DNA from: Gammaproteobacteria bacterium
Lineage (GTDB): Bacteria; Pseudomonadota; Gammaproteobacteria; Burkholderiales; Rhodocyclaceae
Direction of reading: 5' to 3'
Length of the DNA: 33,414 bases
NCBI GenBank assembly: GCA_029289235.1
Contig: JARFTZ010000002.1
Location: 1-33,414, forward strand
Notes under the pieces: generated by a model
Database searches by the model: none
Told to the model about the DNA's origin: nothing
What the model saw: only the letters and a program-made list of their open reading frames with translations
Position numbers and translations under genes: made by a program
Shown here: piece after piece, positions 11,026-33,414 of the stretch
Layout: each line of letters starts with the position of its first letter
Position numbering within the stretch: position 1 is the stretch's first letter

Positions 11026-11071
11026 CAATCAACCCCAAAAAAACAGCCGGCATGCATACCCTCCTGACGCA

Positions 11072-12911: not shown

Positions 12912-12994
12912 GCCCAGCCCCCAACGGCAGCCTCCGGATTCACGCATCAACCGGCCAACCCGGCCCGACCAACGTCAGATTCCAAGAAACCAAC

Positions 12995-14341: not shown

Positions 14342-14349
14342 GACAAAGA

Positions 14350-15141
14350 ATGACACCGACCGTTACCGCCAACAAAGAAACCGCCACCTCTTCGGCCATC
14401 ACCTTCAGTCGCACTCTGAGCGAATTGATGGAGGAAGGGATTTACCTTCTTTTCCTCTTGCGCAACGGCCAGGCCCCGAAGTCGCACGAAGAATTCCATC
14501 GTCGCGTCGGGAAGTTCCTTGCCCAGTTTGAAGCCGACGCCCGCAATCTGAACAAACCCATGCTGGCGATTGAAAACGCCAAGTATGCATTCTGCGCCGC
14601 GATGGATGAAATCATCCTGGCTTCAAGTTTTTCGATTCGCCCGCTCTGGGAGAGAAATCCTCTGCAACTCCGCCTGTTCGGCGAACACCTCGCCGGCGAG
14701 AATTTCTTCGACAAACTGGAGACGATGCGTATCGACCCGGTGGCCAACGTCGAAGTGCTGGAAGTCTTCTACACAGTCCTGCTTCTTGGGTTCCAGGGAA
14801 AGTACCTTATCGAGGGAACCGAAAAGCTGGATTACCTGATCAGCCGCCTCGGACAGGAGATCACCCACGCGCGGGGAGGACGCAATGCTTTTGCGCCCAA
14901 CTGGCAACTGCCTCACCGGTTTCAGAACTATGTCCGCAACGAACTCCCGCTTTGGCTGTTCTTCGCATTGCTTGGCCTCATCGGATGCTTGTTCTTTTTC
15001 TCTTTTCGCGGCTTGCTGGGCAACGAGACCGACGCCCTGATTCAGACCCAAAGGCAACCGTCCTTGGCAGTCCCTCTACCTGACCATCCGGAGCCCCCCC
15101 CTCGCCAACAGGCCCCTGGCAGGTTGCGCACTGCCAGCTGA
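14350..15141 (+). CDS. tssL: TssL (DotU-like) inner-membrane protein without OmpA domain
   Basis: TssL anchors the baseplate to the membrane with TssM. The 263-residue product shows the DotU cytoplasmic domain: LMEEGIYLLFLLRNGQAP, NAKYAFCAAMDEIILAS, the WERNPLQLRLFGEHLAGENFFDKL motif and EVFYTVLLLGFQGKYLIEG. A single C-terminal transmembrane helix lies at about 203-225 (LPLWLFFALLGLIGCLFFF), followed by only about 35 Pro/Gln-rich residues, so there is no fused peptidoglycan-binding domain. I choose the ATG at 14350, eight bases after the tssK stop; an in-frame TTG at 14338 is a less likely alternative. Confidence 0.95.
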   Translation: MTPTVTANKETATSSAITFSRTLSELMEEGIYLLFLLRNGQAPKSHEEFHRRVGKFLAQFEADARNLNKPMLAIENAKYAFCAAMDEIILASSFSIRPLWERNPLQLRLFGEHLAGENFFDKLETMRIDPVANVEVLEVFYTVLLLGFQGKYLIEGTEKLDYLISRLGQEITHARGGRNAFAPNWQLPHRFQNYVRNELPLWLFFALLGLIGCLFFFSFRGLLGNETDALIQTQRQPSLAVPLPDHPEPPPRQQAPGRLRTAS

Positions 15142-15165
15142 ACAGGACGTCCCCACCCTTCGCCC

Positions 15166-15654
15166 ATGCCTTACGACGTTTCTCAAACCGGCTTCCTCCC
15201 GTCCGTCCTCGACCGCCTTCTCGACGACAACCCCAGAAATGAGGAAGAAATACCTTTTTTTAAGGCATTCGACATTCGCGCCCTCAAGCGCGCCGTTGCC
15301 CGTGACATTGAAGCTCTGCTTAACGCCCGCTGTGTCGACACTGACGAATGCCTGAACGGATTCCCCAACTCCCGGGCATCGATGCTTGATTTCGGCATCA
15401 CCGACCTGTCGAGCCTGAGCCTTCTCGACCCGGGAGATCGAGCCTATCTGCGTGACAAGATCCGCATCGCCATCCAGAAACACGAACCTCGCCTTGACGC
15501 GGTCTCGGTCAGTCTGGACTCACCGAACGGCACGGAGCGCATGCTGCGGTTTCGCGTTGACGCCTATCTGCATGTCGTGCCCACGCGTCCGCCCGTCAGG
15601 TTCGACGCCACCCTGCAACTATCGACCAGTTCATACCAGATTCGGGAAAGCTGA
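15166..15654 (+). CDS. tssE: TssE (gp25-like) baseplate protein
   Basis: A gp25-like baseplate wedge protein of 162 residues that helps initiate sheath assembly. Visible features are SVLDRLLDDNP near the N terminus, the ALKRAVARDIEALLNARC helix, SRASMLDFGITDLSS and the RIAIQKHEPRLDAVSVSL segment containing the EPR triad characteristic of gp25 proteins. It begins 24 bases after the tssL stop and its own stop directly abuts the tssF start codon (TGAATG), indicating coupled translation. Confidence 0.95.
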   Translation: MPYDVSQTGFLPSVLDRLLDDNPRNEEEIPFFKAFDIRALKRAVARDIEALLNARCVDTDECLNGFPNSRASMLDFGITDLSSLSLLDPGDRAYLRDKIRIAIQKHEPRLDAVSVSLDSPNGTERMLRFRVDAYLHVVPTRPPVRFDATLQLSTSSYQIRES

Positions 15655-17514: not shown

Positions 17515-18536
17515 ACGCGGAACTGTTCACGGAGGGATCGCGTTTCGGTTTTTTCCAGGCGGTTCGCCTGCTTGCACTCGGGCCAAAGCGCAACAGCACA
17601 GGCCCTGTTCCCGAAAGCTTGCGCTTCTCGTCCAAGCTGTCGCTTTCATTTCCCGCAAGCGAGATTGACCGCATCACTTTGTGTCGCCCACCGACGGAGG
17701 AAGGGCCCGAATCCAGCCTCACCGAAGGAAGCACTGCAGAAGTGAGCGTCAATTTCATGGGGCTTGTCGGCCCCTCTGGCGTGTTGCCCACCGCTTATAC
17801 CGAACTGCTGATCGACCGGCGCAACCGTTTTCGTGACAGAGCCGGACACGCGTTTCTGGACATTTTCACCCACCGCGCGGTTTCGCTGTTCTACGCCGCT
17901 TGGAGAAAGTACCGATTCTATATCCCCTTCGAAGCGGGCAAGCATGACGGATTCTCGCGCAACATCCTCGACATCGTCGGCGTCGGGTTACAACACATGC
18001 AGCGCCGCCTCAAGCCAAATGACGGAGGGATTCCGGATCTTTTCCTGCTCCACTATGCCGGCCTGCTGTCTCAGCGACCGATCCCGGCAGTCAACATCGA
18101 AGCGCTGGTGAAGGGATTCTTCGGTATCGAGGCGCAACTCGAGCAGTTCACCGGACAGTGGATACAGTTGCCGGAAGAAGAACAGAGCGCCCTGATCACC
18201 GGCCGGAACTGCGTTCTCGGGCGAACCGCGTTCATCGGTGAACGTATCTGGGATCGACAGAACAAGATGCGATTGCGTCTGGGGCCGCTCGACGCCGACC
18301 AGTTCTCTCGATTCATGCCGGGACAGGAAGAAGTCCTGGCACTGCAGGAATTGGTCCGATTCGCCTCAGGACTCACGCTGGATTGCGAAGTCGGACTCAT
18401 TCTGAGGCGAGATGCCATTCCCTCTCCCATTCTCCAAACGAAGCAGAGACCTCCTCGCCTGGGCTACTCGCTGTGGCTCAACTCGCGACCACGAACCAGT
18501 GACGCCGAGGATGTCCGCTTCACGCTGCTCAAGTAA
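17478..18536 (+). CDS. tssG: TssG (ImpH) baseplate protein
   Basis: A 352-residue partner of TssF in the baseplate wedge. Family features include FGFFQAVRLLAL (about 23-34), VSVNFMGLVGPSGVLPTAYTELL (about 88-110), the DIFTHRAVSLFYAAWRKYRF helix and LLHYAGLLSQRPIPAVNIEALVKGFFGI. The C-terminal half with NCVLGRTAFIGERIWDRQNKMR is also standard. The start lies inside the end of tssF, a 37-base overlap commonly seen between these genes. It is the last recognisable gene of the plus T6SS operon; clpV, which often follows, is absent and the next gene is convergent. Confidence 0.96.
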   Translation: MASQGRQGTRNLDAELFTEGSRFGFFQAVRLLALGPKRNSTGPVPESLRFSSKLSLSFPASEIDRITLCRPPTEEGPESSLTEGSTAEVSVNFMGLVGPSGVLPTAYTELLIDRRNRFRDRAGHAFLDIFTHRAVSLFYAAWRKYRFYIPFEAGKHDGFSRNILDIVGVGLQHMQRRLKPNDGGIPDLFLLHYAGLLSQRPIPAVNIEALVKGFFGIEAQLEQFTGQWIQLPEEEQSALITGRNCVLGRTAFIGERIWDRQNKMRLRLGPLDADQFSRFMPGQEEVLALQELVRFASGLTLDCEVGLILRRDAIPSPILQTKQRPPRLGYSLWLNSRPRTSDAEDVRFTLLK

Positions 18537-18638: not shown

Positions 18639-19514
18639 TTAGGCCGCAAGCCGTTGCCTGCTCTCGAAAGTGACAGGGACTCGGCCCGTCACCTCGTCGC
18701 TTATCTCGCCACGGGCCAGCAGGCACCCGAAGGCCACGCCCAGCATGTCGGCGACGCCGCCGATCGTCAGATTCAGTTCCTTGTAACGATCATTGCATTC
18801 TTCGAGGAAGGTGACCGCATCGCCGCGGTCAGCGATCAGGCACTCGAGTCTGCGCCCATCCTCCCTGACCCGATTCAACCCGTCCCGGCCGGCGCGGTGC
18901 AGTGTCGTCGTATCGTCAACGGTCTGCATCAGTCGCGCCATCATCGCGAACGACGCTGTGGTAACGCATCCGTGCCGCGCGAACGCGTCGCGGAACGCCG
19001 GCAAGGCGGCATCGAACAAGGACGGGTAACCACCGATGGCTTCGCCGACGATTCCGCCGGTGTGATAGTTCCGGCGAACCTTTTCGCCGTTGGAGCCGGT
19101 CTTCGCCGCCGTATCGAAAAACGACCGGGAAATGGTCGAAAGCGATTGCCGCACGGCCGCCTCATCGGATACTCCCGCGTGATGGCGCGCGATCAGCAGC
19201 ATACCGCTGAGGAAGATGTAGCCTTTGTGGGTATTAGTTCCCAGCTCGTCGTAGAGGCGACGTTCGGCGTGAATGGCGATGTCGCGCTGGCAGGCAAACG
19301 GTTCGTCCGCGCGCAGCGAGGCCACAATCGCATCGAGGTAATCGGCGACGATGCCGATCGACCGCTCCATCAGCGTGACGGAAAGATCGGGATGCGAGCC
19401 GTTGTCCAGCAGGTCGACGAGACCGGGCTTGGGCGTGAGATAGAGCTCCATGCTCGCGCCGCGTGCCAGCGCGTTGGCGAGATGCTCAAGTTCGGAATGG
19501 CGCGAGGAGTTCAT
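18639..19514 (-). CDS. citG: CitG, triphosphoribosyl-dephospho-CoA synthase
   Basis: CitG condenses dephospho-CoA with ATP to make the precursor of the citrate lyase acyl-carrier prosthetic group. Starting at the ATG at 19514 gives 291 residues, close to the family's usual length; the open frame extends 47 codons further upstream into citX, but that extension is unlike CitG. Seen motifs: ELYLTPKPGLVDLLDNGSH (about 22-41), FACQRDIAIHAERRL, the GTNTHKGYIFLSGML segment and the NYHTGGIVGEAIGGYPSLF region. The start lies 29 bases inside the end of citX. Last gene of the cit operon, probably followed by a weak terminator. Confidence 0.93.
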   Translation of the reverse strand: MNSSRHSELEHLANALARGASMELYLTPKPGLVDLLDNGSHPDLSVTLMERSIGIVADYLDAIVASLRADEPFACQRDIAIHAERRLYDELGTNTHKGYIFLSGMLLIARHHAGVSDEAAVRQSLSTISRSFFDTAAKTGSNGEKVRRNYHTGGIVGEAIGGYPSLFDAALPAFRDAFARHGCVTTASFAMMARLMQTVDDTTTLHRAGRDGLNRVREDGRRLECLIADRGDAVTFLEECNDRYKELNLTIGGVADMLGVAFGCLLARGEISDEVTGRVPVTFESRQRLAA

Positions 19515-20004
19515 GGACCCGGTGGATGACGGTATGGAGGGAATGACGTTTGGCGCGGATGCAATCGACCGCGGGCTGGTCGCAAATGAGGCAGGAACGC
19601 GAGGAAAGACCGAGCGAATTCCGGTCGATCTGACGTCCGTCCGGCGCGTAGACATCGAGGTCGATCAGGCGCGACGACGGATGGCCGGTCTCCAGATGGA
19701 CGCAGGCTTCCTTCACCGCCTTCGGGTCTGCCTCCAGGCAGAGGATTGCATACGGCCCCAGGACGTCGTGAAACCTGCTCGATTCGGCGATGCCGGCCAG
19801 TACCGCCGGCAACTGGTTGAACATCCAGACGAACAGCGCCTCGGCCCCGGGCGGGGTTTTTTCCCCGCCCGGGATGTTCAGCGCCAGAAACAGCGTCGCC
19901 GGATGCCCCCGGCCCAGCGCCCAGGCCAGGGCATCCTGCCGGCTGTCCCGGGCGTCCAGGTAGCTACGCCTTGACCTGGCGGATGACGTCAATGATGGAG
20001 CCAT
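19486..20004 (-). CDS. citX: CitX, apo-citrate lyase phosphoribosyl-dephospho-CoA transferase
   Basis: CitX attaches the CitG-made cofactor to the serine of CitD. The product is 172 residues from the ATG at 20004, which lies 41 bases inside the end of citF; the frame remains open further upstream but that part only shadows citF. Family features are YLDARDSRQDALAWAL (matching the conserved SRDERQ region), LGPYAILCLEADPKAVKEACVHLE, LIDLDVYAPDGRQIDRNSLGL and the cysteine motif RSCLICDQPAVDCIRAKRH. A CTG preceded by AAGG near the citF stop is an alternative but less orthodox start. Overlaps both neighbours, so citF-citX-citG are tightly coupled. Confidence 0.88.
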   Translation of the reverse strand: MAPSLTSSARSRRSYLDARDSRQDALAWALGRGHPATLFLALNIPGGEKTPPGAEALFVWMFNQLPAVLAGIAESSRFHDVLGPYAILCLEADPKAVKEACVHLETGHPSSRLIDLDVYAPDGRQIDRNSLGLSSRSCLICDQPAVDCIRAKRHSLHTVIHRVHELLAPFRT

Positions 20005-21502
20005 CACGGTACTCGACGAGGGCAACAACCTTGTCCTCGAACTCAACGGGCTTCGGCACGCCGGTGACGGCATAGATCTCGTCACGCAGCTGCCGGATGT
20101 CCTTCACCGGTGCGCCGCGCTTGATCAGTTCCGCCTTGAGATCCGGCAAATTGTCGTTCACCGCGATGCCGCGCTCGGTAACGATCACGCCCACCGTCTC
20201 GCCCGGGGTAGAAATGGTCGTCACCTCGTCGCGCACCATCGGCAGACGGCCACGGATCGACGGACAGACAACGATCGACACCTTGGCACCCGCCGCCGCG
20301 TCGCAGTGGCCACCCGTGTTGTGCAGCAGGTAGCCCATCGACTCGGTGTTGACGTTGACGTTGAAATTGACGTCGGTTTCGGTCGCGCTGAGGATCACGC
20401 AATCCAGACGGTTGACGATCGCCCCGCAGTTGAACGGGTTGGCATAGGTGCCGGCGGTGACTTCCACGTGCTTCTGGTTGCGGCCGATCGACTGCACGGC
20501 CTTGAGGTCGAAACACTGCACGTCGAACAGCGCCTCGAACAGCCCTTCCTCGAGCATGTCCACAAAGTAGCCGGTAATCCCGCCAAGGCCGAAGCTGCCC
20601 TTGACCTTGTCACGACGCATCATGTTGCGCACGTGCTCGGCGACGGCCAGCGATATGCCGCCGGTGCCGGTCTGGAACGAGAAGCCGTCCTTGACGTAGC
20701 CGGAGGCCTCGATGACCATCGCCGCGTACTTGGCGATCTGCAGACCGATCGGATCGGTGGTGATCTTGGTCGTCGAAGAGACGATCTTCTTCGGGTCGCC
20801 GAGACGCGGCACCTGGGCAACGAAGTCGACCACCGACTGCGGAATGCCGACAGGCACGGCCGGAAACGGCACCAGGTTGTCGGTCACCGCGACGACCTTG
20901 TGCGCGTGCTGCGCGTCGACCAGCGCGTAGCCGAGGCTGCCGCAGGCAGATGGGCCGTAGTAGCCGTTGAAGTTGCCGTACTCGTCGCAATACGGTGCCG
21001 CCAGGAAGGCGACATCGACCGGTACTTCGCCGGTGATCAGCGCGCGCGCGCGACCGCCGTGCGAGCGAACGATGATCGGGCAATCGAGTTCGCCCTTGGA
21101 CACCAGTTCGGCAATGGGGCCGTTGACCCCGCATTCGAAGCCGGTGATCGTGCCCTTGCGGATATAGGGGATCAGTTCAGCGTTGACGATGTGCACCGAA
21201 CTCGACGCGATCTTGATGTCGCGAATGCCCAACGCGTCGATTTCCTTGACCAGTTCATTGAGCAGGTAATCGCCGTTGCGCAGGCTGTGGTGCGTCGAGA
21301 TGGTCATGCCATCCTTGAGGCCCGAGGCAATGATCGCATCGCGCAGGCCACCGACCAGTTTGCTGCCGTTGTGGGTCAGGCGCCGAATGGCGCGGGTCGA
21401 GCGCTCGGCATGCGGTTGCAGCGACCACGGATCGCTGTAGGGAATCAGCTTCTTGCCGGCAAAGGTTTCCGGGATCAGCCGGCCCAGACTATTCCGTACC
21501 AT
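19964..21502 (-). CDS. citF: CitF, citrate lyase alpha subunit
   Basis: The alpha subunit transfers citrate onto the acyl carrier CitD, releasing acetate (citrate:acetyl-ACP transferase). The 512-residue protein matches the family end to end: GLKDGMTISTHHSLRNGDYLL, HSHGG-like RSHGGRARA, DVAFLAAPYCDEYGNFNGY, FSFQTGTGGISLA, LGGITGYFVDMLEEGL, NVNVNTESMG and the C-terminal VEYRDGSIIDVIRQVKA. The start is set by GAGGAGG six bases before the ATG at 21502; a further ATG at 21517 precedes that Shine-Dalgarno and is unlikely. The start overlaps the citE stop by 14 bases. Confidence 0.97.
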   Translation of the reverse strand: MVRNSLGRLIPETFAGKKLIPYSDPWSLQPHAERSTRAIRRLTHNGSKLVGGLRDAIIASGLKDGMTISTHHSLRNGDYLLNELVKEIDALGIRDIKIASSSVHIVNAELIPYIRKGTITGFECGVNGPIAELVSKGELDCPIIVRSHGGRARALITGEVPVDVAFLAAPYCDEYGNFNGYYGPSACGSLGYALVDAQHAHKVVAVTDNLVPFPAVPVGIPQSVVDFVAQVPRLGDPKKIVSSTTKITTDPIGLQIAKYAAMVIEASGYVKDGFSFQTGTGGISLAVAEHVRNMMRRDKVKGSFGLGGITGYFVDMLEEGLFEALFDVQCFDLKAVQSIGRNQKHVEVTAGTYANPFNCGAIVNRLDCVILSATETDVNFNVNVNTESMGYLLHNTGGHCDAAAGAKVSIVVCPSIRGRLPMVRDEVTTISTPGETVGVIVTERGIAVNDNLPDLKAELIKRGAPVKDIRQLRDEIYAVTGVPKPVEFEDKVVALVEYRDGSIIDVIRQVKA

Positions 21503-22409
21503 TGATGTCCTCCTCATTGATTACCACGTCGACCATGCCGTGCGCGCGGGCCGTGTTCAGCACGCGGGCGGCACGCACCACGACCGGCCGGTCGATCATC
21601 TTGCCCTTCAGCGAGATGACACCGGTACCCATTTCGCGGGCGCGCTTGATGGCTTCCATGACCTCCAGCGCGTAGTCGACTTCTTCCTGCTTCGGCGCAA
21701 ACACGTCGTGAATGACGTCGATCTGGCGCGGGTTGATCATGCACTTGCCGGTGAAGCCGAGCTTCTTGATCAACTCCGTTTCCTTGCGCAGCGCTTCCAT
21801 GTCATTGACGTCGGCAAAGATCGTGTCGATGGCCTGGATGCCCGCGGCTTTCGCGCCCCACAACACCGTCATGCGGGCGTTGAACAGTTCCTCGCCGGTC
21901 TTGGTACGGTTGATTTCCATCGTGGCGGTGTAGTCTTCGGCGCCGAACGCCAGACCGATCAGGCGCGACGAAGCCTTGGCGGTCTTCGGCGCGTTGAGCA
22001 CGCCTTCGGCGGTTTCGATCGACGGCAGGATCTTGAAGTGGCCGACCTCGAAGCCCAGCTCTTCTTCATACTCGGTCAACAGCGTGTCGAGGTGCTCGAC
22101 GACCTCCGGCGTATCGGCCTTCGGCAGACGGATGCCGTCCGGCTTGGCCGGCAGCACCGTCTTCAGGTCATCCAGCGCCCACTTCGTGTCGAGGCCGTTG
22201 ATGCGGATGAGGATTTCCTTGTTGCGGTTCTTGTAGCCGTCGAGGAAGCGGCGCACCAGGATGCGCGCCGCGTCCTTCTCGGCCAGCGGGACGGCGTCTT
22301 CGAGGTCGAGCAGCACGGCATCGCAGCCGAACAGCGGAACGTTCTGCAGCATCGACGGCATGTTGCCCGGCACGTAAAGCAGCGACCGGCGCAGTTTGTA
22401 GTCGGCCAT
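21489..22409 (-). CDS. citE: CitE, citrate lyase beta subunit
   Basis: The beta subunit cleaves citryl-ACP to acetyl-ACP and oxaloacetate. The product from the ATG at 22409 is 306 residues, the usual size. TIM-barrel landmarks are SLLYVPGNMPSML, the metal-site LDLEDAVPLAEKD (Glu37, Asp38), GIRLPKADTPE, RLIGLAFGAEDYTATM, and GKCMINPRQIDVIHDVFAP. A strong Shine-Dalgarno GGAGGA seven bases before this ATG fixes the start; the frame is open 60 codons upstream but that overlaps the DUF296 gene. Homologous enzymes also cleave citramalyl or malyl thioesters; the complete citDEF-XG set favours citrate lyase, though citramalate lyase cannot be excluded from sequence. Confidence 0.95.
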   Translation of the reverse strand: MADYKLRRSLLYVPGNMPSMLQNVPLFGCDAVLLDLEDAVPLAEKDAARILVRRFLDGYKNRNKEILIRINGLDTKWALDDLKTVLPAKPDGIRLPKADTPEVVEHLDTLLTEYEEELGFEVGHFKILPSIETAEGVLNAPKTAKASSRLIGLAFGAEDYTATMEINRTKTGEELFNARMTVLWGAKAAGIQAIDTIFADVNDMEALRKETELIKKLGFTGKCMINPRQIDVIHDVFAPKQEEVDYALEVMEAIKRAREMGTGVISLKGKMIDRPVVVRAARVLNTARAHGMVDVVINEEDINGTE

Positions 22410-22411
22410 GG

Positions 22412-22885
22412 TTATTCCTCCGCGAAGTAGATGGTGGACGTGCCGCCGGACCTGGACTTGTGGCGTTCGATACCGTCCAGCACCAGTTCGATCAGCACGA
22501 TTTCGCAGGTAGCGAAGACCTCGGCGTCTTCCAGTTGCCCGCCGACGACGTCGCCCGAGGCCTTGCCGGCCAGGACGTGCAGATGGCAATCCGGCGTCCC
22601 GTCGGTGCCCGGCACGATGTTGCCGGTGAGTCCGAGCAGTTCCAGCGGCCCTTCGAGTTCATGCGGAGTCAGCCGCGCCGGGGTGATCGGCAGTTTGGCG
22701 CCGCTCTTGATGCCGTTGATGCGCAGCTTGCGGACCGAACCGATCGCCGAGAGGATCACGCCAACCTTGATCTTCTCTTTGACGACCAGCGCCTTGATGT
22801 TTTCCTGGACGCTCTGGCCGGGCAGGATCTTCAGAAAGAAGCGCCGCCCCTGGGTGTACTCCTTGTACCAGTAGGTCTTGTCCAT
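22412..22885 (-). CDS. PPC/DUF296 domain protein inside the cit operon
   Basis: A 157-residue protein of the PPC (plants and prokaryotes conserved, DUF296) family. The central DCHLHVLAGKASGDVVGGQLEDAEVFATCEIVL stretch, split here as DCHLHVLAGKASGDVVGGQL and EDAEVFATCEIVLIEL, carries the paired histidines and GG(Q/H)L motif of bacterial PPC proteins, and VGVILSAIGSV is the family's GxIxxxGxx region. Bacterial members form small trimers of unknown function; plant members are fused to AT-hooks, absent here. GGGAGG precedes two overlapping ATGs: 22888 overlaps the citD stop as ATGA, and 22885 overlaps as TGATG with better Shine-Dalgarno spacing; I use the latter. It ends two bases before citE. 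Its presence within citrate lyase genes is unusual and suggests a role in citrate or cofactor metabolism, but that is inference. Confidence 0.88.
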   Translation of the reverse strand: MDKTYWYKEYTQGRRFFLKILPGQSVQENIKALVVKEKIKVGVILSAIGSVRKLRINGIKSGAKLPITPARLTPHELEGPLELLGLTGNIVPGTDGTPDCHLHVLAGKASGDVVGGQLEDAEVFATCEIVLIELVLDGIERHKSRSGGTSTIYFAEE

Positions 22886-23148
22886 CATTCACCTCCCGCC
22901 CGTTGCAACGCGGCTTCGAGACGCGCCTCGATGGCGTAGTCGAGCGCACCGCGATCGCTGATGCTGACCTTCGCGGCACGCACATCGTGCCGAACCAGGA
23001 CTTCTTCCAGTTTTGCCCGGATCAAGTGCTCGAACTGCTTCTTGACCGTCGATTCGATTTCGATGGACAGCGCATCCGCCGGCTCCACCGTGACCATCAG
23101 GTCACTGGACTGCATCGTGCCCGCCTGGCCTTTCTTCAAGATTTGCAT
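22885..23148 (-). CDS. citD: CitD, citrate lyase acyl carrier protein (gamma)
   Basis: CitD carries the phosphoribosyl-dephospho-CoA arm used by CitE and CitF. The 87-residue product aligns with the family: AGTMQSSDLMVTVEP places Ser14 at the modified position, and the C-terminal helix contains VRAAKVSISDRGALDYAIEARLEAAL. GGAG lies eight bases before the ATG. It is the first cit gene, 101 bases after icd, with a palindrome in that gap. In many bacteria citC (citrate lyase ligase) precedes citD; here isocitrate dehydrogenase takes that place. Confidence 0.95.
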   Translation of the reverse strand: MQILKKGQAGTMQSSDLMVTVEPADALSIEIESTVKKQFEHLIRAKLEEVLVRHDVRAAKVSISDRGALDYAIEARLEAALQRAGGE

Positions 23149-23175
23149 AGCTCATACTCCGTGATTCAAGAATTC

Positions 23176-23214
23176 CAGGCCCGCCGCCCTCGTTGCCGGG
23201 GACTGCCGGGCCTG
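23176..23214 (-). other. Hairpin between icd and citD
   Basis: CAGGCCCG (23176-23183) and CGGGCCTG (23207-23214) form a perfect 8-bp GC-rich stem. On the minus strand it follows the icd stop by about 35 bases but is trailed by GAATTCTTG rather than a T-run, so it may be an attenuator, processing site or mRNA stabiliser rather than a classic terminator. Confidence 0.5.
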
Positions 23215-23249
23215 ACCGAAAAGATCACATCAACATGCCCCTGAGTGGA

Positions 23250-25538
<2,289 letters not shown>

Positions 25539-26793: not shown

Positions 26794-26903
26794 AAATCCA
26801 CCGCAGAGACACGGAGACGCAGAGGAAACACAGAGAAGAAACTTGTTTCCTTAGGTTTTCTCTGTGAAAACTCCGCGTCTCTGTGCCTCCGTGGTGAGGT
26901 TTT
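26794..26903. repeat. 110-bp imperfect palindrome between convergent genes
   Basis: Two arms of about 45 bases (26794-26842 and 26855-26903) are imperfect inverted copies, built of CAGAGA/ACGGAGACGC-type purine-rich units, around a loop with a small inner hairpin GAAACTTGTTTC. On the minus strand the element is followed by TTTGTTTTTTTAC and on the plus strand by GGTTTTACGG, so it could end transcripts from both iclR and dctP. Its look (CACCGCAGAGACACGGAG) recalls dispersed intergenic palindromes I associate with several environmental proteobacteria. Copy number cannot be judged from one window. Confidence 0.75.
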
Positions 26904-26922
26904 ACGGCTGATCATACTTTTT

Positions 26923-26944: not shown

Positions 26945-27952
26945 CTACTTGCGCAGGCGGGCAATCTCTCCGAAGACGAACTTTGCGAACTCCTCGCCGA
27001 TGCTGGCGCTGTATTTCTCGACCACCGGCTTCAGTTTAGCCCGGATCTTCTCCACTTCGCCCGGCGCCAGTTCATCGACCAGCAGCGTCTTGCGGATGGA
27101 AGCCAGCGAGCGATCCTGCGCTTCGCGCGACACCTTGCGCTGAAAGACCGCCGACTCGTTCGCCGCGTCGAGAATGATCTTCCGTTCGTCCTCGTTCAGC
27201 CGGTCCCACGTTGCCTTGCTCATAAGGAAAGACTGCGGGTTGTAGATGTGGCGCGTCTCGGTCAGGTATTTCTGCACGGCGTCGAGTTTGTTGGAGGCGA
27301 TGACGGCGAACGGGTTTTCCTGGCCATCGATCTTTTTCTGCTCAAGAGCCGAATAAACCTCGGTAAATGCCATTGGTACGGCCTCCGCACCCAGCGCGGT
27401 GAAGGTATCGATATAGGTGGGCGACTGGATGACCCGGATCTTCAGGCCGGCGATGTCGGCCGCCGTTCGGACCGGGCGCTTGCTGTTCGTCAGATTGCGA
27501 AAACCGAGGTCGTAATAGGCCAGGTTAACCAGCCCCTTTTCCGGCAACTTGTCCGCCAGCCGTTTGCCGACGGGACCGTCCATGATCGCGTCAACCTCAT
27601 TCACGTCGTTGAACAAAAAGGGAAAATCAACGACGGCGAATTCCTTCACCAGCGATTGCAGGATGCCTGAATTCATCGTGGTGAAATCAACCGCGCCGCG
27701 CTGAACGGACGACAGCACCTGATGGTCGCTGCCCAGCACCCCGCCGGTATAGAGCTTGACGATCATCTTGCCGCCGCTCTTCTTCTCGACCAACTCGGAG
27801 AACTTCACCCCGCCTCGCACAACCGGGTGACCGGATGGATTGGTTGTGGCCCAGCGGAAGGCCAGATCACGGACTTCCGCACCGGCATGCGCCGGGACGA
27901 GGGCATAAAACAGCGCCGTAGCGGCAGCAAAGACATGTTTCGTGCAATTCAC
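26945..27952 (-). CDS. TRAP transporter solute-binding protein (DctP family), copy 1
   Basis: A periplasmic binding protein that delivers an organic acid to a TRAP permease. The start is a GTG at 27952, fixed by AAGGAGGAG six bases upstream; the frame stays open nine codons further but lacks a ribosome site. The 335-residue product has a signal peptide (about 1-23, ending VPAHA). Then come DctP landmarks: RWATTNPSGHP, GGKMIVKLYTGGVLGSDHQVL, VDFPFLFNDVNEVDAIMDGPVG, the ligand-site GLKIRVIQSPTYIDTF (the Arg normally pairs with the substrate carboxylate) and ALEQKKIDGQENPF. It is clearly a paralogue of the binding protein at 31666-32679, well over half identical by eye. It lies downstream of a strong terminator, so it may be read from its own promoter or from read-through. 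Ligand unknown. Confidence 0.94.
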   Translation of the reverse strand: MNCTKHVFAAATALFYALVPAHAGAEVRDLAFRWATTNPSGHPVVRGGVKFSELVEKKSGGKMIVKLYTGGVLGSDHQVLSSVQRGAVDFTTMNSGILQSLVKEFAVVDFPFLFNDVNEVDAIMDGPVGKRLADKLPEKGLVNLAYYDLGFRNLTNSKRPVRTAADIAGLKIRVIQSPTYIDTFTALGAEAVPMAFTEVYSALEQKKIDGQENPFAVIASNKLDAVQKYLTETRHIYNPQSFLMSKATWDRLNEDERKIILDAANESAVFQRKVSREAQDRSLASIRKTLLVDELAPGEVEKIRAKLKPVVEKYSASIGEEFAKFVFGEIARLRK

Positions 27953-28001
27953 TTCCGACTCCTCCTTGTTGCTCTGCAATTGTCAGCGGGCAAACGATGT
28001 G

Positions 28002-28047
28002 AAAAAGCCGTTGCGTGGCCGGGATGCTCTCCCAGCCACGCAACGGC
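28002..28047 (-). terminator. Strong intrinsic terminator after aldehyde dehydrogenase gene
   Basis: A perfect 13-bp stem (GCCACGCAACGGC at 28035-28047 and GCCGTTGCGTGGC at 28007-28019) with a 15-nt loop, followed on the minus strand by TTTTTC. It lies 29 bases beyond the aldehyde dehydrogenase stop and separates the enzyme genes from the last TRAP binding-protein gene. Confidence 0.92.
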
Positions 28048-28075
28048 GCGACACGATCAGCGCGAGAACGCGATA

Positions 28076-29569
28076 TCAGAACGGCGAGTACTGGATCTTC
28101 TCGAGTTCCGGATCGTAGAACTCGCCGAAGAGTTCCTCGTCCTTCAGCCAGTCGGGCTGATCATACTCCTTGGACACCCAGGTGATATTCATGTAGTGAT
28201 GCAGGTGAATATTCTCGCTGGTGGCGTTGCCGGCCCAGGTACCGCAACCGATCGACGAGGTCATCGGCATGCCGTTCATCATGCTGCCGGCGTTGGCCTT
28301 GGACTGGGCCTGGCGCACCATGATGCGGCCGACGCGGGCCACCGAGGCGAGGCGATGGATATGGTCTTCGTCGAACGAGAAGATGCCGACCGAGTGGCCG
28401 ATGCCGCCGACGTCATGGATGGCCATGATGGTATCGATGGCGTTCTGGAACTCGCCGCAATACTTGTGCACCGCGAGCAGCGTGGTCAGCTTCTCGTGGC
28501 ACCAGATGCCGTCGAGCGTGCGCTTGAAGACGCCGGTACCGTGCGAGGCGATCAGGAACTTGCGGTCTTCCGGGATTTCGAAGCCGGCAGCCTTGGCCAT
28601 ATCCTGCGGCGACAGGGCGACGGTATCCGGCAGGCGGTGGCACTCGTCGTCCCACATGACCTTGCGCATGGCTTCCTGCTCGGTCGGCGAGAGCATGTAG
28701 CCGCCGACGGTCACGAGTTCCTTCAGCGCGTCTTCCCAGATGCTTTCGTGGATGACGATGTTGCCGTCCGCCGAGCAGCCCGAACCGAAGTCCGAAGTCT
28801 TCGAACGCATGGTGTTGAACGCCGCCTTGTTCAGATCCTGCTTGGCGGTTTCGTCCCAGATCATCGTCGCGTTGCCCGCGCCGACGGCGTAGGCCGGGGT
28901 GCCGGACATGTAGGCGCGGCGCACGACGCCCTGACCGCCGGTGGCGATGATCAGGTCGCACTTGGTCATCAGCGCTTCGGAGATGTTCTTGTTGATCTTG
29001 GCCTTGTAGCCGAGGATCTGGACCAGGTCTTCCGGCGCGCCGACGCGACGCAGGCCTTCGCGCATCAGCTCGATGGTCTTGCGGCTGGTCTTCAGCGTGC
29101 GCGGATGCGGCGAGAAGATGATCGCGTTGCGCGCCTTGATCGCATAGATCGAATTACCGGCCGGAGTCAGGTCGGGGTTGGTCGCCGGGATCACGCAGGC
29201 GATGACGCCGACGGGCTTGGCGTACTTGACGATGCGCTTCTCCGGGATTTCCTCGATGATCCCGACCGACTTCTCGCGCAGGCAGTCGCGCAGGATGCCG
29301 CGGATCTTGAAGCGCTTGGCCTCACGGCTGATCGGATCGCCGAAGGCGCTTTCCTGGATGCCGAGTTCGACCAGTTCGTGGAAGGTCTTGGAGTTGGCAA
29401 CGATCTGGGCCACCGAACGGATGGTGCGGTCGATCGCTTCCTGGCTCCAGGTTTCGAATTCGCGCTGCGCCTTGTCGGCACGGGCAAACGCCTCTTCGAT
29501 CTCGTCGATCTGGTCCTGGTTGAGTTTCAGCTCTTCGTAGCGAGCCTTCATGTCGTTTTGTCTGCTCAT
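28076..29569 (-). CDS. Acylating-type aldehyde dehydrogenase (EutE/SauS-like)
   Basis: A 497-residue aldehyde dehydrogenase resembling CoA-acylating members (EutE, AdhE N-domain, sulfoacetaldehyde dehydrogenase SauS), which make acyl-CoA from an aldehyde. Seen features: KPVGVIACVIPATNP (about 118-132), a nucleotide-site GGQGVVRRAYMSG (about 211-223), GTPAYAVGAGNATMIWD, and the nucleophile region KTSDFGSGCSADGNIVI with Cys265. The acylating group typically has KxxDxGxxCxxxQ here; the glutamine region is replaced by ADGN, so substrate use may differ. GGGGA lies seven bases before the ATG. It follows the HMG-CoA-lyase-like gene by 140 bases and is closed by a strong terminator. Acylating activity and substrate are inferred from family resemblance; a non-acylating role remains possible. 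Confidence 0.85.
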   Translation of the reverse strand: MSRQNDMKARYEELKLNQDQIDEIEEAFARADKAQREFETWSQEAIDRTIRSVAQIVANSKTFHELVELGIQESAFGDPISREAKRFKIRGILRDCLREKSVGIIEEIPEKRIVKYAKPVGVIACVIPATNPDLTPAGNSIYAIKARNAIIFSPHPRTLKTSRKTIELMREGLRRVGAPEDLVQILGYKAKINKNISEALMTKCDLIIATGGQGVVRRAYMSGTPAYAVGAGNATMIWDETAKQDLNKAAFNTMRSKTSDFGSGCSADGNIVIHESIWEDALKELVTVGGYMLSPTEQEAMRKVMWDDECHRLPDTVALSPQDMAKAAGFEIPEDRKFLIASHGTGVFKRTLDGIWCHEKLTTLLAVHKYCGEFQNAIDTIMAIHDVGGIGHSVGIFSFDEDHIHRLASVARVGRIMVRQAQSKANAGSMMNGMPMTSSIGCGTWAGNATSENIHLHHYMNITWVSKEYDQPDWLKDEELFGEFYDPELEKIQYSPF

Positions 29570-29709
29570 TGCATTTCCCCTAACAAAAAAACTTCAAAAA
29601 ACCTGGTTTGATGTTCACTCCGGCAAAACCGGAATCCTGTTCAGTTGTTGTATGAAACACGATTTCGCCGTCGATGCCGGCAGCGATCCCCGTGCGCCGA
29701 TGTTTCCCC
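29570..29709 (-). other. Intercistronic gap with small hairpin
   Basis: A 140-base gap between the lyase and aldehyde dehydrogenase genes. TCCGG(CAAAA)CCGGA at about 29628-29642 is a 5-bp tetraloop-like hairpin; a similar CCGG(AAAAG)CCGG occurs in the next gap upstream (about 30700-30712). No gene or promoter is seen. Confidence 0.3.
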
Positions 29710-30663
29710 CTACTTGTTGTTCTGCCCCTGCGCTTTTTCCTTGACCAGATCGACGCAGCGGCCGGCCTTGAGCACCGTGCTGGACGCCGGGTGGCCGACA
29801 AATTCGGCGGCCAGGCGCGCGGTGTCCATGGCTTTCAGCAGGTCGATGCCGGTGTCGATACCCATCTCGTGCAGCATGTGGATGACGTCCTCCGAGGCGA
29901 CGTTGCCCGAAGCGCCCGGCGCGAACGGACAGCCGCCGAGCCCGGCGAAGGCGCCGTCGAACATGCGCACACCGGCCTGGATGCCCATCACGATGTTGGC
30001 CAGCGCCATGTCGCGGGTGTTGTGGAAGTGCATCACCCACTGCACCTGCGGGAATTTCTGGATCATGTAGGTGGCGAGTTCGTACACCTGACGCGGGTTG
30101 GCCATGCCGGTGGTGTCCGACAGCGACAGCTCGGTGATTCCCAGCTTGACGAAGCTCGCCACGACGTTTTCCACCTGCTCGACCGGCACGCGTCCCTGGA
30201 ACGGGCAGCCGAAGGAGGTCGAAATGGCGCCGGACAGCGTCATGTTGTTCTGGGTGGCGAATTCGACGCAATCGGCAAAGCCCTCGACCATCTTGACCGG
30301 CGAGCTGTTGAAGTTGGCCAGGCAGTGCGCCTCGCTGGCCGAGACGGTCAGCTTGGCCTTGGTCAGGCCCGCATCGAAGGCCCGCTGCACGCCCTTGATG
30401 TTCGGCACCAGCGCGCGGTACTCGACGCCGTCGACCTTCTTCGTCGCGCGGCAGAGCGCGTCGGTGTCGGCCATCTGCGGCACGGCCTTCGGATGCACGA
30501 AGGCGCCAACCTCGATGATCTTCACGCCGGAGGCGACGACCGCGTCGAGCAGTTGCAGCTTCTGTTCGACGCTCGGAATCGTCTTCTCGTTCTGCAGGCC
30601 GTCGCGCAGACCGACTTCGCAAAGAGAGACCTTCGCCGGCCAGACAATACTGGGAGTAGTCAT
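29710..30663 (-). CDS. HMG-CoA lyase family enzyme
   Basis: A 317-residue DRE-TIM metallolyase of the hydroxymethylglutaryl-CoA lyase type, which cleaves a 3-hydroxy-3-carboxyacyl-CoA to an acyl-CoA or keto acid. Key residues of the family are intact: LCEVGLRDGLQNE with Arg20 and Asp21, the metal histidines in VMHFHNTRDMALAN (His212, His214), and the catalytic-loop GLGGCPFAPGASGN with Cys245. Length equals the bacterial enzymes. GAGGA precedes the ATG by four bases. In context (with a shikimate-dehydrogenase-like enzyme and an acylating-type aldehyde dehydrogenase) it may act on a substrate other than HMG-CoA, such as a citramalyl-like thioester or a free hydroxy acid; I cannot tell from sequence alone. 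Confidence 0.92.
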   Translation of the reverse strand: MTTPSIVWPAKVSLCEVGLRDGLQNEKTIPSVEQKLQLLDAVVASGVKIIEVGAFVHPKAVPQMADTDALCRATKKVDGVEYRALVPNIKGVQRAFDAGLTKAKLTVSASEAHCLANFNSSPVKMVEGFADCVEFATQNNMTLSGAISTSFGCPFQGRVPVEQVENVVASFVKLGITELSLSDTTGMANPRQVYELATYMIQKFPQVQWVMHFHNTRDMALANIVMGIQAGVRMFDGAFAGLGGCPFAPGASGNVASEDVIHMLHEMGIDTGIDLLKAMDTARLAAEFVGHPASSTVLKAGRCVDLVKEKAQGQNNK

Positions 30664-30733
30664 GGTTCCTCATCCTTTCAACTAAACAACCTTGCCTCCG
30701 GAAAAGCCGGCGGCACTCAACATTCAATCCGTT

Positions 30734-31573
30734 TCAGTACTCGATCTTCGCCACCGCGCGGAGTTCTTCCGGCGTCGCGGTGCCGAAACCGAAGAATTCG
30801 AGATAGGCGGGAATCATCTCGAAGAGCATGTCGGTTCCCACCTGATATTTGCAGCCACGTTCGATGGCGGCCTTGAGCATCGGCGTAATTTCCTGCTTCA
30901 TCACCACCTCGCCGACAAAGGTCGTCGGCGCAAGGCGCGTCACGTCGAACGGCAGCGGATCGTCGGGTTTCATTCCCAGCGGGGTGGCGTTAACCACCAG
31001 GTCATAACCCGCCGGATCGTTGGAGGTCACGGCGACTTCCATGTCCGGATAGTAGGTTTTGAGACGCGAGGCCAATCCTTCCGCCGAAGCAGTATTCAAG
31101 TCAAACAACGAAATCGACGCCGCGCCATCGGCAGCGAGCGAGGCCGCGATCGGGCTGCCGACACCGCCGGTGCCGACGACCAGAATCCGGCTCCCCTTCG
31201 TCTTGAATCCCTTGCGTGCCACGCCACGGGCAAAACCGGCGCCATCGAACTGGTCGGCAAGCAAGGTGCCATCGGGGCGCTTCAACAATGCGTTAGCCGC
31301 TCCTGCAATCCGGGCCGTAACGCTAACTTCGTCAGCTAGGCCAACGGTGCTTACCTTGTGCGGCATGGTAACGAGCGCGCCCAGAACATTGGAGAACTTG
31401 AAGATCTGCCGCAAAGAAACCGGGTAGTCCTCGGCCTTGACTCCCATCGGCACGACCATCGCGTCGATACCCTTCTTCTCGAACCACGGGTTGTAGATCA
31501 GCGGTGCCTTGAAGGCTTCCGTCGGGTAGCCCAGGTGTGCGATCAGTGTCGTCTTGCCACTTAACATCGTCAT
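30734..31573 (-). CDS. Shikimate dehydrogenase-like oxidoreductase, divergent substrate site
   Basis: A 279-residue member of the AroE/YdiB family of NAD(P)-linked dehydrogenases. The Rossmann motif RILVVGTGGVGSPIAASLA (about 129-147) and the catalytic Lys73 (VTMPHK) and Asp110 (ADQFDGAGF) are present, and Asn94 sits in GAANAL. But the N-terminal substrate loop, normally with two serines (SKS-P) that bind the shikimate carboxylate, reads EAFKAPLIYNPWF, lacking both. The normal NTDG motif is QFDG. So the fold and chemistry look conserved while the ligand is probably not shikimate. Biosynthetic AroE is therefore unlikely. A second ATG two codons in (31567) has GGA at better spacing. It is followed by the lyase gene after 70 bases. 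Confidence 0.88.
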   Translation of the reverse strand: MTMLSGKTTLIAHLGYPTEAFKAPLIYNPWFEKKGIDAMVVPMGVKAEDYPVSLRQIFKFSNVLGALVTMPHKVSTVGLADEVSVTARIAGAANALLKRPDGTLLADQFDGAGFARGVARKGFKTKGSRILVVGTGGVGSPIAASLAADGAASISLFDLNTASAEGLASRLKTYYPDMEVAVTSNDPAGYDLVVNATPLGMKPDDPLPFDVTRLAPTTFVGEVVMKQEITPMLKAAIERGCKYQVGTDMLFEMIPAYLEFFGFGTATPEELRAVAKIEY

Positions 31574-31602
31574 TCCAATCTGTCGTTCAAGGAATCTCCG
31601 TC

Positions 31603-31639
31603 TTCCGCGGCGGCACGTACACGCAACGCCGCCGCGGAA
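31603..31639 (-). other. Perfect 12-bp hairpin between TRAP binding-protein and dehydrogenase genes
   Basis: TTCCGCGGCGGC (31603-31614) and GCCGCCGCGGAA (31628-31639) form a fully paired GC-rich stem with a 13-base loop, about 27 bases after the binding-protein stop on the minus strand. No T-run follows. Such intercistronic stems often protect the binding-protein mRNA so that it is made in excess over later genes. Confidence 0.75.
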
Positions 31640-31665
31640 AAGATCAACTCACGATTACCTGTTGC

Positions 31666-32679
31666 TTACTTCTTGCCGCGGACCTTCTCGATTTCAGCGA
31701 AAACTTTCTTCGCGAAGTCGGCGCCGACGTTGGCGCTGTACTTCTCGATCACCGGCTTCAGCTTCTCGCGAACCTTGGCCAGCTCAGCCGGCGGCAGTTC
31801 GGTCACTTCCATCTTCTGCTTCAGCTCGTTCAAGGCCACTTCCTGCGCCCCGCGCGACAGCGTGCGCTGATAGTTCGCTGCCTCGGTCGCCGCCGCGGTG
31901 ATAATGTCCTGCTCTTCCTTGTTAAGCGAGTCCCACTTCTTTTTGCTCATCAGCATCGACTGCGGGTTGTACATGTGGCGCGTCACGCCGAGGTACTTCT
32001 GGACTTCGGCAAACTTGTTGGCCTGGATCACAGTGAAGGGGTTTTCCTGACCGTCGATCATCTTCTGCTCAAGGGCGGTATAAACCTCGGTGAAGGGCAT
32101 CGGCACCGAGTTCGCGCCCAAGGCGTTGAACGTATCGATGTAGATCGGCGACTGGATCACGCGCATCTTCAGCCCAACGATGTCGTCGGCCGTCTTCAGC
32201 GCCCGCTTGCTGTTGGTCATATTGCGGAAGCCGAGATCGAAATAGGCAAGATTCACCAGACCTTTTTCCGGCAGTTTGGCATCGAGTTCCTTGCCGATGG
32301 CGCCGTCGAGGATTGCGTCGACTTCCTGCGCGTTATTGAACAGGAACGGGAAATCGACGATCGCGAATTCCTTGATCTGCCCTTGCAGGATGCCCGTGTT
32401 CATCGCCGCGAAATCGAGCGTTCCGCCCTGCACTGCGGAGAGCAGTTGCGGGTCGCTGCCGAGCACGCCGCCCGGGAAAACCTTGACCTTCATCTTGCCA
32501 CCGCTCTTCTCCGAAACGAGCTTGGCGAAACGCTCGCCACCCATCGGAATCGGGTGACCGGCCGGGTTGGCCGTCGCCCAACGGAGATTCATCGAACGTA
32601 CTTCAGCCTGTGCTCCACCTGCCATGACCAGGCTGCAGGCAGCCAGGATTGCCACTCCGATTGTTTTCTTGAATTTCAC
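31666..32679 (-). CDS. TRAP transporter solute-binding protein (DctP family), copy 2
   Basis: A periplasmic binding protein of 337 residues starting at a GTG at 32679, fixed by GAGGAGA about six bases upstream; the frame is open 40 codons further but without a ribosome site. The signal peptide (about 1-26) ends in MAGGAQA. DctP features are RWATANPAGHPIPMGG, GGVLGSDPQLLSAVQGG, IVDFPFLFNNAQEVDAILDG, the ligand-site GLKMRVIQSPIYIDTF and ALEQKMIDGQENPF. It differs from copy 1 at several ligand-pocket positions (for example PMPFTEVY versus PMAFTEVY) yet is otherwise closely similar. It lies 101 bases downstream of the TRAP large-permease gene, which suggests the pair forms one transporter. Substrate unknown. 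Confidence 0.95.
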   Translation of the reverse strand: MKFKKTIGVAILAACSLVMAGGAQAEVRSMNLRWATANPAGHPIPMGGERFAKLVSEKSGGKMKVKVFPGGVLGSDPQLLSAVQGGTLDFAAMNTGILQGQIKEFAIVDFPFLFNNAQEVDAILDGAIGKELDAKLPEKGLVNLAYFDLGFRNMTNSKRALKTADDIVGLKMRVIQSPIYIDTFNALGANSVPMPFTEVYTALEQKMIDGQENPFTVIQANKFAEVQKYLGVTRHMYNPQSMLMSKKKWDSLNKEEQDIITAAATEAANYQRTLSRGAQEVALNELKQKMEVTELPPAELAKVREKLKPVIEKYSANVGADFAKKVFAEIEKVRGKK

Positions 32680-32740
32680 TTTAAGTCTCCTCTTGAAAAA
32701 GCACTTGAAGCAACGCGCGGATTGACCGCATTGAATGAAA

Positions 32741-32763
32741 GCCGGAGATGCTGCACAGCCGGC
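32741..32763 (-). other. Small hairpin between TRAP permease and binding-protein genes
   Basis: GCCGG (32741-32745) and CCGGC (32759-32763) form a 5-bp stem, followed on the minus strand by TTTCATT. It may be a weak attenuator in the 101-base gap after the permease stop. Confidence 0.3.
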
Positions 32764-32780
32764 CCCCAATACAGTGATAC

Positions 32781-33414
32781 TTAGAACCCTCCGAACCACT
32801 TGCCGGGCACGATGACGAGCGCCGGGAAGAGAATCAGGAAGGTCAGGATGACGAGATGCGACAGCAGAAACGGCGCGACACCCTTGACCACCTGCGTCAT
32901 GTTGCTCTTGGTCGCCCCGGCGACGACGTTGAGCACGGTGCCGACCGGCGGGGTAATCAGGCCGATCGAGCCGCAGACGACGAAGATCACCCCGAAATAA
33001 ACTTCGTTGATCCCCGCCTGCCGGGCCACCGGCAAGAGCACCGGGGTGAGGATCAGGATGATCGGCGAGAGGTCCATCACGCAGCCGACGGCGAACAGGA
33101 TGGCGATCATCGCCAGCATCAGCAGCGTCTGGCTGCCCATCAGCGGCTGCAGGAGTTCGACCATCTGTCCCGGCAGGTCGGCGATGGTGATCAGCCAGGC
33201 GGCGGCCAGCGCGGCCGCGACGAGGAACATGACGATGCCGGTGCTCTTGGTGGCGGCGACCAGCACGTCGAAAACCTGCCCGACCTTCAGTTCGCGGTAG
33301 ATGACAATCGCCACGAAGAGCGAATAGACGGCGGCAACCACCGCGGCTTCGGTCGGGGTGAAGATGCCGAACTTGAGGCCGAAGATGATGATGCCGGGGA
33401 GGAACAGGGCCCAG
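32781..33414 (-). CDS. TRAP transporter large permease (DctM family), C-terminal part
   Basis: The large membrane subunit of a TRAP transporter, cut by the right edge; 210 C-terminal residues are visible. The segment FGIFTPTEAAVVAAVYSLFVA is the family's most conserved signature (split here as GIFTPTEAAVV and AAVYSLFVA), and the later region includes PIILILTPVLLPVARQAGIN and VYFGVIFVVCGSIGLITPPVGTVLN, also typical. At least four hydrophobic segments are seen. The next gene is the binding protein at 31666-32679; the small permease (DctQ) is expected beyond the edge. Reading continues to the last codon of the window without a stop. Confidence 0.95.
   Translation of the reverse strand, partial: WALFLPGIIIFGLKFGIFTPTEAAVVAAVYSLFVAIVIYRELKVGQVFDVLVAATKSTGIVMFLVAAALAAAWLITIADLPGQMVELLQPLMGSQTLLMLAMIAILFAVGCVMDLSPIILILTPVLLPVARQAGINEVYFGVIFVVCGSIGLITPPVGTVLNVVAGATKSNMTQVVKGVAPFLLSHLVILTFLILFPALVIVPGKWFGGF

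Follow-up and report, generated by a model that had tools for sequence, protein, structure and literature searches.

What is the function of the gene cluster that closes contig JARFTZ010000002.1 of a Gammaproteobacteria bacterium (Burkholderiales; Rhodocyclaceae; assembly GCA_029289235.1)? The window, by which the whole stretch of DNA analysed is meant, is this complete contig of 33,414 bases (C2); the assembly break truncates the cluster inside the gene for DctM, the large permease of a TRAP transporter. Five co-directional genes and the cut DctM gene occupy positions 26945–33414 of the - strand: two TRAP solute-binding proteins (DctP1, DctP2), an AroE-like dehydrogenase, a lyase of the 3-hydroxy-3-methylglutaryl-coenzyme A (HMG-CoA) lyase type (HMGL), and a CoA-acylating-type aldehyde dehydrogenase (ALDH). 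The gaps are about 70–140 bases, the last varying with the DctP2 start chosen, and every family assignment lies above its Pfam cut-off (Table 1); coordinates and Pfam thus bear out the layout given by the sequence-only reading of this DNA. That reading had further proposed that a hydroxy acid, perhaps hydroaromatic, is imported, oxidised by the AroE-like enzyme and cleaved by the lyase, the released aldehyde being captured as acyl-CoA. A single catabolic unit, TRAP uptake and a hydroaromatic substrate are retained here; the order of the enzymes is not. We consider it somewhat probable that the cluster encodes a non-aromatising breakdown of quinate and shikimate resembling the breakdown of inositol.

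Core enzymes of this reading lay on another contig, outside the view of the sequence-only reading. A search of the host genome for two proteins that recur beside ALDH elsewhere, a thiamine diphosphate (ThDP) enzyme and a xylose-isomerase-like TIM barrel (XI), placed both at the start of contig C3, in the gene order type I dehydroquinase (AroD), ThDP enzyme, XI, DctQ. At three loci on single contigs (L003, L005, L038) the order is AroD, ThDP enzyme, XI, DctQ, DctM, DctP, AroE, HMGL, ALDH. C3 is read as continuing C2 because gene order and strand fit, and we infer that the two adjoin, the start of C3 carrying the 5' half and C2 the 3' half of one operon. The genome holds five AroE-family proteins, two type I dehydroquinases and one type II dehydroquinase. 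An AroE gene lies close to the type II dehydroquinase on contig C45 (L093, L098), with a CoA-transferase family III-like reading frame preceding the pair (by eye), and this is possibly a second hydroaromatic locus; the second type I dehydroquinase is on contig C46 (L096), adjoining a TctA-like reading frame (by eye).

The neighbourhood was examined at 80 loci, the best 80 of 170 confirmed ALDH relatives in genome contigs (58–91% identity), from Propionivibrio, Accumulibacter-labelled genomes, Sedimentibacter, Acidaminobacter, Lachnospiraceae, other clostridia, Brevibacillus, Rhodoferax and others; the loci of P. soli and P. dicarboxylicus hold the cluster. Families were assigned by clustering of open reading frames, family scans of representatives and profile searches at E 1e-15, and a gene was counted as present if found anywhere in the fetched stretch; 39 loci have at least 8 kb on both sides (well covered) and 41 fall short on one side or the other. 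The ThDP enzyme is present at 65 loci, XI at 62, both at 57, HMGL at 54, any AroE at 52 and AroD at 19; among the well-covered loci the ThDP enzyme is present at 35, XI at 36, both at 34 and HMGL at 27. ThDP enzyme, XI and HMGL are all missing at six of the 80 (L009, L011, L025, L062, L064, L065), only the first of which is well covered. The trio AroE, HMGL and ALDH, for which a neighbourhood search had been suggested, recurs at 38 of the 80 loci and 18 of the 39.

A CaiB-type CoA-transferase, a second, non-acylating aldehyde dehydrogenase, or both lie beside the acylating ALDH at L058, L061, L065, L071 and L074, perhaps as an alternative means of acid activation. ALDH is found on two contigs of P. 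dicarboxylicus (L011, L012). In a genome of the window's genus (G105), XI is present three times and ALDH twice, the two ALDH copies some 10 kb from each other (C1 744028–760302; C3 200837), and the operon appears to be duplicated there. In a plasmid search, the ALDH relatives found were all below 60% identity.

Co-occurrence was followed in 249 genomes of the family and 399 of the order; the hypergeometric values given here ignore shared descent. At family level ALDH (87–100% identity), XI (74–100%) and HMGL (90–100%) are found in an identical set of four genomes, every one from the window's genus, of which eight genomes are listed among the 249 (ALDH with XI, 6e-9, uncorrected for descent, all four being of one genus). 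Left out of this count are weaker matches, which make up two of six genomes for ALDH (43–45%) and three of seven for XI (43–44%). HMGL has weaker matches in 178 more genomes at E 1e-50, at no more than 44% identity among the matches listed. At order level (thresholds 1e-130 for ALDH and 1e-60 for XI) ALDH occurs in five genomes and XI in four, with three in common including the host's own; in the two others ALDH and XI lie 1.8 and 2.8 kb apart (2e-4 excluding the own genome, likewise uncorrected).

These data bear on the plainest alternative, that a biosynthetic AroE, a leucine-pathway HMG-CoA lyase and an unrelated dehydrogenase are merely ordinary neighbours. The retention of HMG-CoA lyase motifs by HMGL speaks for it; against it stand linkage conserved across phyla, four other AroE-family proteins in the genome, and the window's HMGL itself, at least 90% identical to those of three congeners and at most 44% to the others among the matches listed. 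We find this explanation hardly credible. The combination of an ordinary AroE with a leucine-type HMG-CoA lyase was rejected on the conserved linkage and the split in HMGL identity, and the trio is not scattered in the way that would have spoken against the sequence-only reading.

The order of lyase and dehydrogenase is the point at which we depart from that reading. HMGL scores above the cut-off of the HMG-CoA lyase family (DRE-TIM) model (NF004283, 324 bits against 246) and far below that of the 4-hydroxy-2-oxovalerate aldolase model (57 bits against 286); aligned with 1ydo, 6nds and 2cw6, it keeps the motifs RDGLQNE, H-x-H and GGCP..GASGN, whose residues we take to be catalytic in HMG-CoA lyase. 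At 11 of the 80 loci it is replaced by a citryl-CoA lyase (cluster c31) of citrate-synthase fold, unlike the HMGL fold; three of these 11 were scored, and all exceed the cut-off of 261 bits (L074, 436; L048, 381; L070, 434). HMGL alone is present at 54 loci, citryl-CoA lyase alone at 11, both at none and neither at 15, some of the last being short contigs. Both lyases together would be expected at 7.4 loci (hypergeometric 7e-7, the true statistical weight being smaller, as the 11 loci represent few lineages and three are Brevibacillus). This replacement is the main mechanistic argument: it suggests that the two lyases split a common substrate, a 3-carboxy-3-hydroxyacyl-CoA, into acetyl-CoA and a 2-oxo acid. 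Since both kinds of lyase use CoA thioesters, ALDH should precede the lyase and act on an aldehyde supplied by the ThDP enzyme.

ALDH itself has acylating enzymes as its nearest relatives throughout: its nearest NCBIfam model is the acylating sulfoacetaldehyde dehydrogenase SauS (393 bits, under the cut-off of 600, so that membership is not indicated), other near models are of the AdhE and EutE type, and its best solved relative is the acylating succinate-semialdehyde dehydrogenase 8cei, AdhE structures being matched too. The motif GSGCS[AS]D around the catalytic C265 is kept in all 81 ALDH copies at the 80 loci. A sulfoacetaldehyde pathway was considered and set aside, SauS being the nearest model yet scoring below its cut-off. 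A DRE-TIM lyase beside an acylating ALDH also recalls DmpG/DmpF, and the sequence-only reading had followed that pair in letting the lyase release an aldehyde, after AroE-like oxidation, for capture by ALDH. With the HMG-CoA lyase residues kept, the aldolase score far below its cut-off, citryl-CoA lyase in place of HMGL at 11 loci, and the ThDP enzyme and XI left without a role, this order is probably wrong, and we give it little credence; unlike in DmpG/DmpF, the thioester would be formed ahead of cleavage. Context argues that HMGL works on something other than HMG-CoA, and we propose that it is a homocitryl-CoA lyase yielding acetyl-CoA and 2-oxoglutarate, a change of substrate argued from its surroundings.

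XI scores 60 bits on PF01261 (cut-off 31), and its putative metal ligands E135, D165, H191 and E239, whose identity we presume from IolI, are invariant in 11 sequences. A structure model of the L005 protein (from the 11-sequence alignment; pLDDT 93.8) matches IolI best (E 4e-16), followed by 5hmq (7e-13; a two-domain fusion of a TIM barrel with HPPD), AsbF 3dx5 (2e-10) and IolE 9zmu (4e-10). Two of these, 5hmq and 3dx5, are dehydroshikimate dehydratase structures, which favours an aromatising route in which XI is the dehydratase that makes protocatechuate from 3-dehydroshikimate, itself derived from quinate or shikimate, and in which the ThDP enzyme, ALDH and lyase belong to a downstream aromatic or an unrelated branch; a regulator nearest to PcaR/PobR and one intradiol-dioxygenase domain in the host genome (78 bits) point the same way. 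The N-terminus of that dioxygenase protein, however, resembles a secretion signal (by eye), and the XI of L060 reaches just 20 bits on the QuiC model (cut-off 1200, a two-domain model), while a separate QuiC-like family adjoins some loci (97 bits for its L011 member, below the cut-off). Linkage within the core of XI, ThDP enzyme, ALDH and lyase is, moreover, much more frequent than linkage to AroD or AroE. We therefore regard the aromatising route as quite unlikely.

Quinate and shikimate are pointed to as substrates by AroD, present in the host's own operon and at 19 loci, and by the AroE proteins of other clusters: those of L010, L028, L043, L060 and L074 exceed the TIGR00507 cut-off, and that of L059 is nearest to the quinate/shikimate dehydrogenase of C. 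glutamicum (265 bits, against 140 for the next). The L059 protein lies below the NCBIfam quinate/shikimate equivalog cut-off (285 against 515) and passes that of a shikimate dehydrogenase subfamily; the contig of its locus is short, carries an incomplete ThDP gene and showed no XI or lyase. The hydroaromatic substrate that the sequence-only reading had offered as a fitting guess is favoured by these same findings.

The AroE-like protein of the window is the weakest assignment, because the usual carboxylate-binding serines are missing. None of the 25 NCBIfam models shown (of 27) is passed, the best reaching 132 bits against 432. K73, N94 and D110 are kept; both serines of the SxS motif, which we take from E. 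coli AroE to bind the carboxylate, are replaced, by F and A. The best solved relative is 4k28 (151 bits), of the shikimate dehydrogenase family and, we believe, RifI2 of Pseudomonas putida; unlike the window's protein, it keeps one SxS serine where the latter has alanine. The AroE-like protein could bind its substrate differently or work on a different intermediate; alternatively, quinate could be oxidised by one of the genome's four remaining AroE proteins. Such a pocket, unlike those of shikimate dehydrogenases, would also suit another cyclic or sugar-like polyol acid, degraded along the same lines (by a dehydratase, a ThDP diketone hydrolase, an acylating ALDH and a 3-carboxy-3-hydroxyacyl-CoA lyase), with the AroE-like enzyme acting on that ring and AroD an optional side entry. 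AroD is missing from 26 of the 39 well-covered loci, and the solute-binding proteins give no ligand clue, as this alternative would allow; the presence of AroD in the window's own operon, the canonical-scoring AroEs and the quinate-dehydrogenase-like AroE of L059 argue for quinate and shikimate instead, and we rate the polyol acid as rather improbable, though the strongest of the competing explanations.

For the non-aromatising breakdown of quinate and shikimate we infer the following substrates, products, reactions and order of steps. After TRAP uptake, oxidation by an AroE-family dehydrogenase would yield 3-dehydroquinate from quinate, or 3-dehydroshikimate from shikimate; AroD would hydrate the latter to 3-dehydroquinate. 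XI, as kin of IolI, IolE and QuiC, would then strip the C5 hydroxyl of 3-dehydroquinate in the manner of IolE or dehydroshikimate dehydratase, giving the ring 1,2-diketone 1-hydroxy-3,4-dioxocyclohexane-1-carboxylate; the product would not be protocatechuate because 3-dehydroquinate has no ring double bond, and dehydroshikimate under the same dehydration would aromatise. The ThDP enzyme would hydrolyse the C3–C4 bond to OHC-CH2-C(OH)(COO-)-CH2CH2-COO-, the aldehyde falling on the short arm if C3 is the site of ThDP attack. ALDH would form homocitryl-CoA with CoA on the acetyl arm, and HMGL (elsewhere citryl-CoA lyase) would release acetyl-CoA and 2-oxoglutarate, with seven carbons in and seven out. 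The ThDP reaction is assigned from context, because the enzyme scores lower on cyclohexane-1,2-dione hydrolase than on several other ThDP chains and stays below the acetolactate synthase cut-offs.

The scheme has several known counterparts. Catabolism of myo-inositol proceeds through IolG, IolE, IolD and further enzymes to IolA; as there, a ring hydroxyl would be oxidised, a xylose-isomerase-like dehydratase would yield a 1,2-diketone, and ThDP-dependent hydrolysis and an acylating ALDH would follow. Unlike in that pathway, the proposed substrate carries a ring carboxylate and a tertiary alcohol, entry through AroE and AroD replaces IolG, and a CoA lyase cleaves the chain, with no sugar kinase or aldolase step. 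The cyclohexane-1,2-dione hydrolase of Azoarcus (2pgn) uses ThDP to hydrolyse a six-ring 1,2-diketone, as is proposed here; the ThDP enzyme of the cluster scores lower on it than on several carboligases. Quinate and shikimate are converted to protocatechuate by QuiA, QuiB and QuiC or by Qsu enzymes. That route, treated in PMC7442255, shares with ours the entry by dehydrogenase and dehydroquinase and a related TIM-barrel dehydratase; unlike it, ours has no aromatic intermediate and has XI, ThDP enzyme, ALDH and CoA lyase as its core. HMG-CoA lyase, citryl-CoA lyase and homocitrate synthase (acting in the opposite direction) all break or join a 3-hydroxyacyl-CoA at its acetyl arm; the proposed lyase would differ in using homocitryl-CoA as substrate.

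Several observations weigh against this scheme. XI and its closest structural match share 19% identity, and the XI family is rich in epimerases, some of them among the matches. Separate QuiC-like TIM barrels (cluster c27) are found at six loci (L011, L059, L061, L072, L078, L082), where protocatechuate might be formed as well. The ThDP enzyme has its highest model scores with acetolactate synthases (435 bits against a cut-off of 538, among 25 of 37 models shown, none of which is an IolD model) and reaches 174 bits on 2pgn, with several other ThDP chains higher. AroD is present at just 13, and any AroE at 25, of the 39 well-covered loci. All 12 other aligned members of the AroE-like group also lack both SxS serines, so that any binding of quinate or shikimate by the AroE-like protein may be of an unusual kind. 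A Sedimentibacter locus (L009) whose ALDH is 85% identical is without ThDP enzyme, XI and HMGL within 10 kb, and both lyases are missing from five well-covered loci (L009, L060, L072, L080, L082). At order level ALDH stands alone in two genomes, with no XI above threshold, and XI stands alone in one. Finally, the profile hidden Markov models derive from the same 80 loci, so that the locus counts are descriptive and no independent test.

Table 1 Coordinates of the cluster genes on contigs C2 (the window) and C3 of the same genome.
Feature	Contig	Position	Strand	Evidence or remark
DctM, TRAP large permease, C-terminal 210 residues	C2	33414–32781	-	PF06808 168 bits
DctP1, TRAP solute-binding protein	C2	32679–31666	-	PF03480 298 bits
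AroE-like dehydrogenase, altered substrate pocket	C2	31573–30734	-	PF08501 (Shikimate_dh_N) 52 bits
HMG-CoA-lyase-like CoA lyase	C2	30663–29710	-	PF00682 (HMGL-like) 186 bits; NF004283 324 bits
CoA-acylating-type aldehyde dehydrogenase (ALDH)	C2	29569–28076	-	Aldedh 78 bits; SauS model nearest; 8cei
DctP2, second TRAP solute-binding protein	C2	27979–26945	-	PF03480 272 bits
IclR-family regulator	C2	25990–26763	+	PF01614 84 bits
DctQ, cut by contig end	C3	1–444		start of C3
XI, xylose-isomerase-like TIM barrel	C3	512–1351	-	
ThDP enzyme	C3	1502–3265	-	
AroD, type I dehydroquinase	C3	3393–4229		TIGR01093 177 bits, cut-off 139

As to transport, DctM reaches 230 bits on the YiaN model (cut-off 800), the remainder of the protein being lost at the contig end. 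DctP1 and DctP2 are 61% identical, and the best solved relative of DctP1 is 4p47; the PDB relatives of the solute-binding proteins yielded no usable ligand clue. The neighbouring regulator, called PcaR/PobR-like in the sequence-only reading, is of the IclR type and has PcaR/PcaU/PobR as its closest model, at 233 bits, below the cut-off of 285. Regulators of the same sequence cluster recur at other ALDH loci, and this one probably controls the cluster. Between it and DctP2, at about 26795–26905, lies an intergenic near-palindrome (by eye), CAGAGACACGGAGACGCAGAGG ... CTCCGCGTCTCTGTG, perhaps a dispersed repeat element or a terminator.

Adjoining the cluster, positions 18639–25499 carry citrate lyase genes (CitG, CitF, CitE), a PCC-domain protein and a monomeric isocitrate dehydrogenase, through which 2-oxoglutarate could be turned reductively into oxaloacetate and acetate; such a block lies beside the cluster at one of the 80 loci (L004), many loci ending before that point. 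If 2-oxoglutarate is divided between an oxidative and a reductive arm (isocitrate dehydrogenase, citrate lyase), four quinate would, by hand calculation, yield 7 acetate, 4 propionate and 2 CO2. Positions 1–18536 of the window hold a type VI secretion block comprising a VgrG-like end, Hcp, the sheath protein TssC, TagF, IcmF/TssM, TssJ, TssK, DotU/TssL, gp25, TssF and TssG; a protein with a VanY/M15-type peptidase domain is also encoded there (11072–11890).

The cluster probably encodes a new catabolic route assembled from known enzyme families. In the open-licence literature searched, no such pathway was found described and the term homocitryl-CoA was not found; subscription journals or preprints may hold a description. 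Quinate and shikimate are abundant in plants, and chlorogenic acids release quinate. Propionivibrio limicola is reportedly a fermentative bacterium specialised in hydroaromatic compounds, which speaks for the proposed route; judging by L006, L011 and L012, the window's genus is probably Propionivibrio. A rumen study predicts quinate use toward chorismate, unlike the route proposed here (PMC10054779). The textbook route through protocatechuate then needs oxygenases or reduction of the aromatic ring. We put at about even the chances of the fuller claim, namely an undescribed, oxygen-independent route from quinate and shikimate via homocitryl-CoA to acetyl-CoA and 2-oxoglutarate without aromatisation, common to Propionivibrio-like bacteria, gut and rumen Lachnospiraceae and amino-acid-fermenting clostridia, with two unrelated CoA lyases serving its last step, and accounting for the Propionivibrio that ferment hydroaromatics. 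If it is true, ring opening ahead of aromatisation would explain fermentative growth on hydroaromatic compounds, a use of dietary quinate by gut bacteria would be added, and a ThDP enzyme and a branch of AroE proteins, both misleadingly annotated at present, would gain functions. Eight or nine genes now labelled acetolactate synthase, HMG-CoA lyase, sugar isomerase and the like would thereby become a testable physiological question.

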